From Protonemura montana (taxonomy: Eukaryota > Arthropoda > Insecta > Plecoptera > Nemouridae), in contig OX387604.1 of assembly GCA_947568835.1 (NCBI GenBank), positions 12,429,076 through 12,493,075 of the forward strand: a DNA stretch of 64,000 nt. The letters are read 5' to 3'. The translations under genes were made by a program, and so were the position numbers. Below are positions 19,161 through 60,294 of the stretch, in pieces (the stretch's first letter is position 1; every line of letters begins with the position of its first letter). The notes beneath the pieces are model-generated. The model was not told the DNA's origin, ran no database searches, and saw nothing but the letters and a program-made list of their open reading frames with translations.

Positions 19161-19545
19161 CTGCTGAATTCTGAGTATCTAACGACGCACTGTCCTTCAG
19201 AATCCTGTGTGTCTAACGATGCACTCCCCATCTGAATCCAGCGTGTATAACGACGCAATGCCCTGTTGAATCCTACGTTTAAAACGACGCATTGCCCTCC
19301 AGAATCCTGATGTCCAACGACGCACTGGCCTGCTGAATCCTGCATGTATAACGACGCAATGACCTGCTTAATCCTGGGTTCTTCACGACGCATTGCCCTG
19401 GTTAATCCTGCGTGTCTTACGACGCACTTCTCTGTTGAACCCTGCTTGTATAACGACACACTTTCCTGCTGTGTCCTGCTTGTCTAACGACCTATTGAAC
19501 TGCTGAATCCTGCGTATATCACGACGCACTGGTCTGACTAAATCA
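19161..19545. repeat. 34-bp minisatellite, about 11 copies
   Basis: Units of about 34 bp carry the core TAACGACGCACTG followed by a CCCTGCTGAATCCTGCGTG-like stretch. About 11 diverged copies follow one another. Since 34 is not a multiple of three, a minus-strand frame through the array repeats every 34 residues (recurring GQCVV), so this open frame is a by-product of the repeat. Flanks 18,158-19,160 and 19,546-20,262 hold no supported gene. Confidence 0.85.
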
Positions 19546-20262: not shown

Positions 20263-21514
20263 CTACGAGTACTTTTTCGTTGATAGAGCATCCATAATAT
20301 GTTGAAATGTCTGTGAGCTGAGACCTGTACTTTGGGAAGGCTGATACATGTTTCCAGACCTTTTCCAAAGTATATCTTCATCAGCCTCGTCTTCAGCTGG
20401 TGGCTCATAATTGTACTTGGCATAGTAAACTGCTGCAAACCCAGAATATATCAGTAGAGCTGCTGTGAATATTTGAAACACTGCCCAAAATTTATATGAG
20501 CCTTCGTTGATAATAAAATCGTAGTAGCCATTGGACGAGTCGCTTACACCCCCTGCTTTCCCCATTTCCCGAGACTCGCTGGAAAAGTCGTTATCTTCAT
20601 GGTCGGCTGTGTCTTCAGTTGAACGCTTCACCCTAGAAAATAGCAAAAAAATCCTAAGTGCAATAGTTATGTGCATGAATTATGAATGTTGGTATTTATT
20701 TATAAACATTATTAATAAATAGTAAATATATGAATATGAATAATCAGACACCCTCTAAAATTCTATTCCTGTCTGGGAATAATTGAAAGGGTAAAAGCGT
20801 TGAGTTTATAGGTACATAAATAGGTTAATAGATAATAGGTTTAGAGCCAGCGTTAATGTTAAACTTTCTGCTGAGTATATGTGCCGGCAAAACGTGGTAA
20901 CAGTAGGTGCCACCCGATGGCTCTTGAGACAAACTTTTGACTCTTTTGACTCTTTTGTTCTTTAAACAAACCTCTATAATTAAATAATCACTACTCAAAA
21001 TATCGACATGTGTGTATCAATCGTTGTGGTTATCATTACTAAAGATTAATTTAGCCCAAATCAGACTCAAATGCGAGTAATCACCGAGAAATAACGAAAT
21101 GATATTTCTTGACAATTGAAACGACGGTGACTCCATCTAGTAGCACCCTCCAATTTTCTCGGTAAAGTAGTTTTTTGGTAACCATTTTTTGCGAAGCAGT
21201 TTAACCGTTGAATTAAAAATGAATGCTATGGTATTATGGTTACTAAACCGCGTTAACAAAACAAAATTTTGATAATAACATAAAAATAACTCAATAAAAT
21301 ACTTCATGTACTTCAATAAAGTAGGTAATTTTCGTACGTACCTCTCAATGGGTGCAGGATACTGCAAAGATGAGGTGTTCGTTTTATTAATTTGGTGCAG
21401 TTGCGATTGAATTGGCACTCTGATATAAGTTGCATCATTCCTCGGCAACGTAAACATCATCACGCATAAAATGAAAAGTGCCCTCAATGGCCAGAGCACT
21501 GAAGTTGGCGCCAT
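20263..21514 (-). CDS. Small secreted-type single-pass membrane protein, 180 residues, unknown family
   Basis: Two exons, 21514-21342 and 20632-20263, join in phase 2. The start is the ATG of MAPTSVLWPLRALFILCVMM, a clear signal peptide. An acceptor (poly-T then CTAG) lies only two bases upstream, so a 5' UTR intron is likely. The mature part has Asn-x-Ser/Thr sites, then a dibasic RVKRS at about residues 58-62 that a furin-like protease could cut, an acidic Ser-rich stretch, a membrane helix at about 107-129, and a 50-residue acidic and Ser/Thr-rich tail. A minus-strand ATTAAA lies at 20237-20242, about 20 bases past the stop. I do not recognise the family. The layout resembles the upstream neighbour at 23.5-25.8 kb, without evident sequence similarity. 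Confidence 0.65.
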
Positions 21515-49020: not shown

Positions 49021-49450
49021 TGATTGATTTATTTATGGTGCTATAACGACTCATTATTTTGACAACAGTGAATGAGAGAGTAATGAGGAGAACTATAATA
49101 AACCTTACCTAGTCTTGAAGGGAGGAGGGGCAACCCGGTGCCGGCACGTAGCCTACTCCCGTCGAAGAGCACCAAGGGGACCACCGGTTTAACGTCCCTA
49201 CCGAAGGACGGTACAACCGTTGAGTGTCGGTACAACGTCACAGGCCACAAATCCATGCTGTCAAGAGGTTGATACGCAAGGCGAATAAAGTTGCTGTACT
49301 AACTTTCATCCCTCCAACCTCTCTCTCTTTTGCTAGAACAGTTCTTGTGTATGTTGGCCACCCATCTAAGACCTGACCCAGGGCAGCGTTGCTTAACTTC
49401 GGTGTACTCATGAGAACCGGTGTTTCCAACACGCCGCACAGTTCGGTTTA
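49021..49450 (-). mobile_element. 5S rRNA-derived SINE (SINE3-type), near full length
   Basis: On the minus strand the head contains ACACCGGTTCTCATGAG, then CACCGAAGTTAAGCAACG, then CTTAGATGGGTGGCC, in the spacing of the internal promoter of animal 5S rRNA (box A, intermediate element, box C). The body is about 250 bp of unknown origin. The tail is TTGTCAAAATAATGAGTCG and then TAAATAAATCAATC. It is about as long as the copy at 58.8 kb and alike throughout. A clear target duplication was not found, only a possible CTTCTA. Confidence 0.8.
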
Positions 49451-54878: not shown

Positions 54879-55121
54879 GATATCCAACAGATTGCGTTTG
54901 CGATCACTTTGTGCTTTAACTCGACTGCTGGTTCGGTGATACTTGTTTGGTATGGTTGACCAGGAGACCTGCTATCGAACAACGGGGTTCGACTGGCGTT
55001 CCTCCAGTCGGACTTCAAGGCTTGCATTTTCGCGTTAGATCGTGGCAACTGGTGAAAGCCCATTTTTTGGAGTGGCCGCGTGCTTCAGCACTGCTTGGTG
55101 TTGGGGTCCGGTCCGGCATTT
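54879..55121 (+). repeat. Dispersed repeat family R2, copy 2
   Basis: Same ordered blocks as 50,209-50,436: GATATCCAACAGATTGCG, GGCGTTCCTCCAGTCGG, GGTGAAAGCCC and GGTGTTGGGGT-like sequence. It lies inside the 6.3 kb hAT-type element. Confidence 0.6.
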
Positions 55122-55240: not shown

Positions 55241-55920
55241 ATGTTGATATTGTTATTGATATTAGTCTACGTTGTCTTTGTTATTTTGCTTGTGGTGATG
55301 TTTGTTAATTTCTGTATATATGTCGCATGATTATATCATATAATTATAATTCCGAATAATTCCTGTATATATTCATTTTTCCCCCTTTTCCTACTTCTTC
55401 TTATATATTTTCTTTATATAATTTTCTTACTTAAGTCACATTTTCTTTTAGTAACAGTAGCCATATTTTCATATGGCGTTCCCCACCATGGCCAATATTG
55501 TTTCGTCGATGCTTTCACCCCCTGGTCGCCAAGCTAGGAACTAAAACATAATTTGAAATTTTTTTTTCTTGCCCTGGAGGATGATTGGTGTGATTAAAAA
55601 AAGATGTAGGCAACGAGGAACGTAAGAACGCAGGACGTTTGATACCTGATGCACCCACATAAACCGCTCGACCATAATTCCGTCAAAAAATCCGAAAAAA
55701 ATCTCAAACACTGTCTCCATGATTTTCAATAAAAGATATTTCGATGAAACATTATAAACACCACCTTCAGAAATGCCCATAATCGTACTAAATAAAAAAT
55801 ACGTTCGAAGTCTTGTGCAGTTTACTCATCCTGGATAATTCACTATGTATGAACAGACAGTCGCATAACATCACTTGGTCACCCAGGACGACGGTGCCAT
55901 ACTCTGGCGCTGGCCCTTAG

Positions 55921-56203
55921 GTCTAGCAACAAGCGTATAGGAACGATTATAATGAGTGTTACGCATCATCAGCGCCACCTGTTGACAGGATTTTGTACTA
56001 CACTTTAGACAAATATTTTGATATTTTCCTGCTGTATTTTCATAGTTATTTTCCGATAAGTTAATGAATTAGATTAAAAATCAGACTTGGAAAATGTCTT
56101 CAATTATTACAAGTCCAGAGTATAGTACAAAATCCTGCCAACAGGTGGCGCTGATGATGCTTAACACTCATTATCGTTTCTATATACTTGATGCTAGACG
56201 TAG
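55921..56203. mobile_element. Foldback/MITE-like inverted-repeat element
   Basis: Arms of about 90 bp at 55,921-56,010 and 56,113-56,203 are inverse copies with few mismatches. Blocks such as GCATCATCAGCGCCACCTGT and ATTTTGTACTA on the left match ACAGGTGGCGCTGATGATGC and TAGTACAAAAT on the right. About 100 bp of AT-rich spacer separates them. No coding capacity. Weaker pairing may extend outward into the first bases of the adjoining hairpin array. Confidence 0.7.
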
Positions 56204-56211
56204 GAGCCCTG

Positions 56212-56480
56212 GTGCGTGAGCGACTGGCGCTCCGCGCCAGTCGCTCACGCACGCTGCTGGGCCCTGGCGCTCCGCGCCAGGGCCCAGCAGCGTGCCGGTG
56301 AGCCCGTGCACCTAAGCGCGCTTCGCGCGCTTAGGTGCACGGGCGCACCGGTGGGCGTTCAAGCGCGCTCCGCGCGCTTGGACGCCCGCCTTTGTGCGCT
56401 CACGCGCGCGAAGCGCGCGTGAGCGCTCCAAAATTGCGGAGCGCGACTGGCGCGAAGCGCCAGTTGCGCTCCGCAATTTT
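56212..56480. repeat. Array of six contiguous GC-rich hairpins with 3-base loops
   Basis: Six inverted repeats abut each other. Stems and loops: 56,212-56,252 (19 bp, TCC, perfect); 56,253-56,291 (18 bp, extendable to about 22 bp, TCC, perfect); 56,295-56,351 (27 bp with one mismatch, TTC); 56,353-56,387 (16 bp with one G.T, TCC); 56,396-56,426 (14 bp, GAA, perfect); 56,430-56,480 (24 bp with one G.T, GAA). Stem tops share GCGC or GCGCGC, and the first and sixth stems share ACTGGCGC. The block is about 70% GC, unlike its AT-rich neighbourhood. Nearly every base is paired. No known function; nothing here resembles an RNA family I recognise. Confidence 0.9.
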
Positions 56481-56540
56481 CGTGGTATCTACACTGTGCG
56501 ACTCAAAAAAAAAAATAAGATGTGTGGCACTGCAGTAGTT

Positions 56541-56627
56541 GTGCTGACGGGAATCGAACCCGGGATCCCGGCAATCTCATGATTACTCACAAGAGGTAGT
56601 GCATTGTACCGCACGACCACGCGGACA
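56541..56627 (-). mobile_element. tRNA-like SINE head
   Basis: On the minus strand: CGCGTGGTCGTGCGGTACAA (box A) and GGTTCGATTCCCGTC (box B, canonical), about 85 bp in all. The 3' end CAGCAC has no partner at the 5' end, so no acceptor stem forms and a functional tRNA gene is unlikely. Confidence 0.6.
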
Positions 56628-56988
56628 TCTAGCTCGGTGGCATTTTTATGGTATATAATTTCTTCAGACTGCAGCTACCATATGTGAATACTTTGAATGT
56701 CGTATTCCAATAGAAAAAATATCCTGTCGGTGAGCGGGATCGAACCAGGTCACAATGTAGCTTGATGGTTCCGATGTAACGACATGTCCATAGTGCAACG
56801 CAGACGGTCGCCCGTGCTGTGGTAAACTGAATATATTTTAATTTCAAACCTGATGTCCCTGTTTACCGGGTTGACTATAGGCACATGTCACTGACGGCAC
56901 TCAATGTATACTACGGTTCGGAGTCGCATTCTTCTTTGCGTTTCAGTGAACCATCATTTAAGAAATTCAAGATATTATGACCGACTAT

Positions 56989-57160
56989 GACAGACTTACG
57001 CAGCGAGCAAGAACTGGACTTGACCCCCGCACCAAGTAATGCAGGGGCAATCGTCCACTCCAAAGATACGGGCTACCACCAGTTGCCGCGATCTAGCGTG
57101 AAAGTGTCAGCTGATAGCGCCCTCTGCAGGGACGCGAGCCACACCCAGTTGCTGGTTTAT
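56989..57160 (-). repeat. Dispersed repeat family R2, inverted relative
   Basis: On the minus strand it matches 55,030-55,121: TAGATCGCGGCAACTGGTG, then TTTGGAGTGG, then TTGGTGCGGGGGT-like sequence. It is more diverged than the other two copies. Confidence 0.5.
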
Positions 57161-57531
57161 CGTTTTTTTTTTTTTTTGCCTTCTTATCCGACCCCGGCAG
57201 CATGGAGATCGCTTCACACTACATCGCCTCTGCCATGCACTATCAAAGATTGTGCAAGCAATGTCGTGAAGAACAAAAAGCGGAGCGGACAGCGAACTCG
57301 AACGCGGTCACATCCGAATTGCTCTTTCGTGGAGCGACTTTTCCAACCGGCCATCGAGACGAGGTGGGTAATAATGGAACAAAGAGATACATGAATAGCA
57401 GAAGACGACTACAGTGTGATAATGAAAAGAGTCAAAAATACTTTGAGAGTTTCGATGGATGAACGAGCGATGCAATATTTGCAGCATTCAATGAATGCCA
57501 GTCGCCACTAGATGAAGAACAAAATGAGGAT

Positions 57532-58778: not shown

Positions 58779-59215
58779 ATTATTATTATTATTTGTGGTG
58801 TTTAACGACGCACTGTTTTGACAACGGACCCTGCGGCACTGGTCTATGATGAGGGATGATGATGAGGATGATGATGAACCTAACCTAGCCTAGAAGGGAG
58901 GAGGGGAAACCCGGTGCCGGCACGTAGCCTACTCCTGTCGAAAAGCACCAAGGGGACCACCGGCTTAGCGTCCCTTCCGAAGGACGGTACAACTCGAACA
59001 GCAGGATTCCTCCACAAATCCATGCTGTCGAGAGGTTGATAAGCGAGGGGAATGAAGTTGCTGTACTAACTTTCATCCCTCCAACCTCTCTCCCGAACAG
59101 AACTGGTCATGTGTATAATGGTCACCCATTCAATACCTGACTCAGCGCAGTGTTGCTTAACTTCGGTGATTTAACGAGAACCGGTGTTTCCAACACGCCA
59201 AACCGTTCGGTCAAA
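58779..59215 (-). mobile_element. 5S rRNA-derived SINE (SINE3-type), full length with 12-bp target duplication
   Basis: CGAACAGCTGTT flanks the element at 58,767-58,778 and 59,216-59,227. On the minus strand the head has ACACCGGTTCTCGTTAAATC, CACCGAAGTTAAGCAACA and GAATGGGTGACC, a 5S rRNA-like polymerase III promoter. A body of about 250 bp shares long identical stretches with the copy at 49.0 kb. The tail TTGTCAAAACAGTGCGTCG, AACACCACA and (AAT)n closes it. The clean duplication fits LINE-driven retroposition. Confidence 0.88.

Positions 59216-60262: not shown

Positions 60263-60294
<32 letters not shown>
60263..60294. repeat. C32 homopolymer
   Basis: Thirty-two C in a row just inside the right terminus of the 6.3 kb hAT-type element. 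Confidence 0.9.

Follow-up and report, generated by a model that had tools for sequence, protein, structure and literature searches.

Six abutting hairpins with an invariant GRA tip in DNA of animal nuclear character: a possible case of foldback-primed stem growth

Repeated scans of the window, the whole 64-kb stretch of DNA analysed here, show a block of 269 bp (56212-56480) that is made of six abutting, near-perfect hairpins. All six tips are one 11-mer, GCGC-G[A/G]A-GCGC (GCGC-GRA-GCGC), when read on the strand whose loop begins with G. The best reading we can offer, a tentative one that falls short of an even chance, is that the array grew by repeated foldback-primed synthesis from these GRA tips. 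Arrays of compact palindromes have been described in organelles and at the telomeres of bacterial linear replicons, and their origin and spread are unsettled; word searches of an incomplete open-licence literature returned no recognised account of an animal nuclear genome with this kind of array. With an invariant loop and with sharing confined to the adjoining stem, a nuclear array would make loop-seeded stem growth directly testable by strain comparison. The hairpins, and the element at their left, are these:

55912-56208: MITE-like palindrome; complementarity 92% in the inner 62-nt arms and about 74% over its whole length
H1, 56212-56252: 19-bp perfect stem; loop TCC on the plus strand (GGA on the minus strand); top GCGACTGGCGC also in H6
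H2, 56249-56295: 22-bp perfect stem; loop TCC (GGA on the minus strand); top CTGGCGC also in H1 and H6
H3, 56295-56351: 27-bp stem with one A.G mismatch; loop TTC (GAA on the minus strand)
H4, 56353-56387: 16-bp stem with one T.G; loop TCC (GGA on the minus strand); top AAGCGCGC also in H3
H5, 56396-56426: 14-bp perfect stem; loop GAA on the plus strand
H6, 56430-56480: 24-bp stem with one G.T; loop GAA on the plus strand; six outermost pairs A/T

The original prediction, of six hairpins with stems of 14-27 bp and with these loops and mismatches, was reproduced by the repeated hairpin scans. The stems (19, 22, 27, 16, 14 and 24 bp from H1 to H6, all with 3-nt loops) hold 122 pairs, 119 matched and 3 mismatched, and 257 of the 269 bases lie inside a hairpin, with 12 outside any. 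Adjacent arms can run into one another, as H1 and H2 overlap by 4 nt and H2 and H3 have 1 nt in common. The arms of H6 bear an additional GCGGAGC / GCTCCGC. GC content is 0.72 for the block (59-81% hairpin by hairpin) against 0.40 for the rest of the window, where no further stretch of 269 bp, taken at 5-base steps, exceeds 0.60; the CpG ratio is 1.34 in the block against 0.96 in the whole window. Folded as DNA, the plus strand of the block has z = -22.4, and none of 200 shuffled versions folds as well, which excludes a chance origin. When the single bases of the block were shuffled 5000 times, the longest 3-nt-loop stem with perfect pairing reached 12 bp (mean 4.5). Elsewhere in the window, at a net score threshold of 9, there is one 3-nt-loop hairpin only, an AT-rich one at 20693-20721.

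The contig around the block is nuclear in character. Of the 132 frames listed in the window, ten were scanned against Pfam: eight gave matches at E 0.001 or lower, and the other two did not. The matches are to trypsin, LDL-receptor A and B repeats, EGF and major-facilitator families (one of the two major-facilitator matches is under Pfam's own cut-off), and frames of this kind fit an intron-bearing animal genome. None of the coding pieces identified includes the block.

The regularity of the tips goes beyond what had been predicted: the six loops are a single motif read on either strand, and the block has a likeness to actinobacterial telomeres. Every loop is GRA on one strand, closed by a C-G pair, and H1-H4 bear the GRA tip on the minus strand, H5 and H6 on the plus strand. 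Yoshizawa in 1997 and Hirao in 1994 reportedly found exceptional stability for this class of triloop as DNA. C(GNA)G is described as an exceptionally stable DNA mini-hairpin loop, of the type d(GCGAAGC) (PMC11292364, PMC6479982). An energy comparison of all 64 triloops found that the folding parameters give GNA loops no bonus, and the extra stability of such loops therefore rests on the literature. As a control for loop composition, 129 three-nt-loop hairpins with a stem score of at least 5 were collected from six actinomycete loci, each hairpin counted once. GRA/TYC loops make up 10 of these 129 but 6 of 6 in the block (Fisher p = 1.1e-6, which assumes independence and is weaker if the tips are related by descent). 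The control loci had been chosen for holding GCGCTYCGCGC, so that the control is biased towards GRA/TYC loops. The rest of the window has 8 such loops among 95 three-nt-loop hairpins.

Sharing between the hairpins is strongest at the loop and fades away from it. With arms aligned at the tip, pairwise identity is 60/60 at positions 1-4 and 39/90 at positions 5-10 (p 0.04); with arms aligned at the base it is 45/150, which is chance level (p 0.71). The expectation that tops would be shared and bases differ, so that the block is no tandem repeat, is thus upheld. CTGGCGC is common to H1, H2 and H6, and AAGCGCGC to H3 and H4; the six bases adjoining the loop are TGGCGC in H1, H2 and H6 and GCGCGC in H3, H4 and H5. 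The closest pair is H1 and H6, with 11 bp in common and a 25-nt top that has 2 differences when H1 is read on the other strand. Ordinary transposition conserves the ends of an element, and the pattern in the block, with the top shared and the end not, is the reverse.

Since H1 and H6 have the same top, H1 gives the mismatch in H6 a direction: where H1 reads GCCAGTCGC, H6 reads GCCAGTTGC. Within H6, GCGACTGG is found opposite CCAGTTGC, and the corresponding H1 sequence is CCAGTCGC. Judged from this comparison, the mismatch is likeliest a C-to-T change at a CpG, in one arm and uncompensated. The G.T pairs had been taken as a hint that pairing is preserved as RNA, and this part of the original prediction was not supported: the H6 change is one-sided, and G.T on one strand is A.C on the other. 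Because the other strand has A.C, G.T gives no support for RNA unless the plus strand is the RNA. All loops are GRA, a class stable as DNA, which argues for a DNA-level process. The block points to a DNA-level hairpin array, with single-stranded DNA folding back, rather than to an RNA gene.

Foldback-primed growth builds on features observed in the block, namely the near-perfect stems, the invariant tip, the sharing of tops but not of bases, the abutting arms and three mismatches, one of them clearly one-sided. The source would be single-stranded DNA, such as arises when a nascent strand stalls, a strand is displaced or an end is resected. On such a strand the 7-11 nt of GCGC-GRA-GCGC would fold into an unusually stable mini-hairpin, and the folded-back 3' end would prime synthesis on its own strand, copying the preceding 14-27 nt before the copying strand goes back to its normal template. 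Every foldback event would in this way extend a small tip to a long, perfectly paired stem. Now and then a tip would be copied to a neighbouring site, where its stem would regrow from the new flanks; tops would be shared and bases not because copied tips regrow their stems from new flanking sequence. The foldback priming, the copying of tips and the order of the tips are what we infer.

Several published observations bear on such a process. Template switching can yield perfect stems in one event, and GNRA loops, which are stable in both DNA and RNA, are enriched among template-switch footprints, as TNCG loops are not (PMC8794818). Two terminal pairs suffice for Pol theta to prime stem-loop synthesis, and inverted templated insertions have been described in Drosophila (PMC11292364). 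The block has the near-perfect arms over a short stretch (119/122 pairs) that mark template-switch events. It resembles template-switch (quasi-palindrome) hairpins in that there a single event gives a perfect stem and stable loops are favoured; it differs in being a six-hairpin array with an invariant tip, where the account cited here describes single events (PMC8794818). Other observations count against foldback growth. Drosophila Pol theta foldbacks are reported to favour 6-nt loops (PMC11292364), and 3-nt loops are under-represented among template-switch footprints, at 3.52% versus 6.11% (PMC8794818). The model leaves unexplained a starting material of 72% GC in a region of 40% GC, and six side-by-side events require a special cause. 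Stems of 59-81% GC in an AT-rich region were not copied from ordinary local DNA, with the perhaps exceptional A/T base of H6. A bolder form of the same idea, which we think rather unlikely, is that the animal nuclear genome harbours self-spreading GCGC-GRA-GCGC tips, copied to new sites where foldback synthesis regrows their long perfect stems. This would be a parasite of single-stranded DNA that needs no transposase and shares its loop chemistry with the telomeres of bacterial linear chromosomes.

A somewhat unlikely alternative is that short palindromic mobile elements landed beside or inside one another, as a nuclear counterpart of the hairpins of placozoan, sponge or algal organelles or as a transfer from them. 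The comparison with organelle palindromes had been part of the original prediction, and the literature on all three groups bears it out. In placozoan mtDNA a GC-rich family with 3-nt loops, GGVBCC-N3-GGVBCC, is classified by the six stem bases adjoining the loop (PMC7813641); sponge mtDNA has tandem hairpins (PMC2800124); and in Volvox organelles palindromes are nested in one another and have nuclear copies, held by the authors to be inert transfers (PMC2670323). The placozoan family and the nested Volvox palindromes serve as precedents, and the 25-nt top that H1 and H6 have in common is a further point in favour. Other features of the block tell against such insertions. Comparing 56186-56216 with 56476-56510 gave no target duplication above 5 bp at the edges (the sole 5-mer repeat there is near chance expectation for such lengths, by our estimate). 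The tips alone are shared and the ends are not, hardly any host DNA lies between the hairpins, and the hairpin scan gave no further copy in the window.

Placozoan mitochondrial hairpins are nonetheless the nearest animal parallel to the block. Like it, they are GC-rich hairpins with 3-nt loops in an animal, and their families are set by the stem adjoining the loop. Unlike it, they are mitochondrial, occur in up to a few hundred copies and have another six-base tip, and no loop rule is described in the portions of that account cited here (PMC7813641). GGVBCC is found in none of H1-H6, whose loop-adjoining bases are TGGCGC or GCGCGC. The placozoan type calls for ten or more copies per genome; the window has six hairpins. 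For the spread of the placozoan hairpins, the authors state that the mechanism awaits investigation (PMC7813641). The sponge and Volvox palindromes are compact hairpins, tandem or nested, as in the block; they differ in being organellar (the Volvox nuclear copies are held to be transfers) and in repeating copies of the same element, and their loops are TAAA/TTTA in Volvox and 5-7 nt in Vaceletia and Hippospongia, as far as these sources describe them (PMC2800124, PMC2670323). Two standard element types were considered for the block and rejected. A Helitron end (a hairpin followed by CTRR-T) was not seen by eye, and for the whole block as a DNA transposon with a target duplication there is no credible direct repeat at the edges.

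The likeness to actinobacterial telomeres presents another alternative, that the block is a captured end of an actinobacterial-type linear replicon (an invertron telomere), or its left and right ends fused, or comes from a linear element with like ends. We consider this improbable. Streptomycete telomeres fall into six classes with stems little alike and loops usually of 3-4 nt, GAA, GGA and GTA being commonest (PMC8743542). They are tightly packed palindromes with sheared G:A loop closure and have been likened to parvovirus ends (PMC4513846). Rhodococcal telomeres have a central motif GCTXCGC, with CGTXCGC also printed (PMC7276702). Our comparison set consists of eight streptomycete ends and three rhodococcal ones, each represented by its first 300 bp. 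GCTNCGC/GCGNAGC occurs 8 times in the 269 bp of the block, as against 6-9 times in the streptomycete ends and 2-4 times in the rhodococcal ones; per 300 bp it occurs 0.5-1.3 times in the six actinomycete loci and 0.07 times in the rest of the window (14 in 63,731 bp). Further points in favour are the GC content of 0.72 and the presence of GGCGCTCCGCGCC, found in H1 and H2, in the end of pRHL3 as well (a 13-nt tip, and the sole sequence in common). The loop strands run TYC four times and then GRA twice, and the outermost hairpins share a top, as joined left and right ends would. This single strand switch and shared outermost top are weak signs of fused ends.

In common with invertron telomeres of Streptomyces and Rhodococcus, the block has packed GC-rich palindromes of the sort found there in 150-300 bp, GNA triloops (frequent in those ends) and GCTXCGC, the latter two at 6 of 6 tips, and those telomeres likewise have stems unrelated between classes. 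The palindromes of the block are packed more densely than in all 11 fetched ends: 3-nt-loop hairpins cover 6-32% of 300 bp in the streptomycete ends and 11-16% in the rhodococcal ones, and almost the entire block. Stems with 3-nt loops reach at most 8-9 bp (streptomycete) and 7-11 bp (rhodococcal), as against 14-27 bp in the block, whose near-perfect stems are mostly two to three times longer. Loops in the block are GRA only, on both strands, whereas GRA/TYC accounts for 6/33 and GNA/TNC for 17/33 of the streptomycete loops, and for 1/6 and 4/6 of the rhodococcal. This count of loops and packing in the fetched ends speaks against a telomere. Palindrome I of a fetched streptomycete end is absent, by eye, from both edges of the block.

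As a telomere, the block fails on two defining points, position at a replicon end and sequence similarity. It is internal, at 56.2 kb of the 64-kb window, with genes and repeats of animal type around it, and no bacterial gene was noticed beside it (one nearby frame, 56981-57391, was scanned, with no hit). The genes tpg and tap, for the terminal protein and the telomere-binding protein, gave no Pfam match among the ten scanned frames of the 132 listed in the window. No similarity to a known telomere class emerged from plasmid records or from Streptomyces genomes: a search of 72,556 plasmid records gave 8 records with a best E of 0.3, 392 Streptomyces genomes gave one weak 62-bp match (E 3.8e-6, with two candidates scored per genome), and a loose search of three such genomes gave weak matches only (best E 0.0018). 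The block may function, or may formerly have functioned, with telomere-like loop chemistry.

Searches beyond the telomere set likewise gave no similar array. A phage BLAST search gave 7 records with a best E of 0.02, at most 14% of the query being covered. The H1/H6 top with any loop was found in 7 viral contigs, all of them lacking a hairpin array; six represent variants of a single coding-looking region. Three GCGC-TYC-GCGC tips in a row occur in 11 viral stretches and at least 116 prokaryote stretches. At a net score of at least 10, 3-nt-loop hairpins with GRA/TYC loops are absent from 124 of the 127 listed loci, with one in each of two loci and two in one. Two copies of GGCGCTCCGCGCC in a row occur in 2 viral contigs, as short spaced repeats with no long stems. 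One viral contig (L153, 1-120) has three spaced GGCGCTCCGCGCC copies near the start of the stretch, beside repeated GTGTCCTGTCAGACA units. The MITE arm had 0 matches in the viral contigs.

It is decidedly improbable that the block is a transcribed structured RNA, such as a source of small RNAs or a set of regulatory hairpins. The minus strand would be very stable as RNA (z = -22.3, 0 of 200 shuffles as good). Against this, Rfam gave no match to the block at gathering scores, the loops track a DNA-stability class and lie on different strands, and the polarised mismatch of H6 lacks compensation. Loops of 3 nt on stems of 14-27 bp are unlike miRNA precursors. The only Rfam matches in the window at gathering scores are two to 5S rRNA, both outside the block and on the minus strand, at 59091-59211 (58.3 bits) and 49336-49443 (40.8 bits), about 9.6 kb apart.

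An artefact of assembly, chimerism or contamination, for which the difference in GC between block and surroundings would speak, as would the difficulty of sequencing such hairpin DNA, is hardly probable, as the MITE-like element lies 3 bp to the left, on the right come an A-run after 25 bp and a tRNA-like stretch after 60 bp, and we know of no adapter or amplification product that consists of six different stems with an invariant tip.

Those neighbours merit a description of their own. The right end of the MITE-like element is 3 bp left of H1, and a possible but weak 8-bp target duplication of this element is formed by CTGGCGCT (55904-55911) and CTGGTGCG (56209-56216), alike at 6 of 8 positions, the right copy overlapping the base of H1. 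Arm mismatches number 3/122 in the block versus 5/62 in the MITE core, which does not separate their relative ages (Fisher p 0.12). No tRNA was called in the window by ARAGORN. By eye, tRNA-like stretches with a B-box-like sequence are found on the minus strand at 56540-56626 and from about 56723 on; the first is followed by a T-run on that strand, and both are perhaps SINEs. The block region is flanked by an inverted pair, 55033-55114 and 57016-57098 (83 bp, 77% identity). Farther away, the window has about eleven copies of a 34-bp tandem repeat at 19161-19531 (74% matches) and a run of 32 C at 60263-60294.
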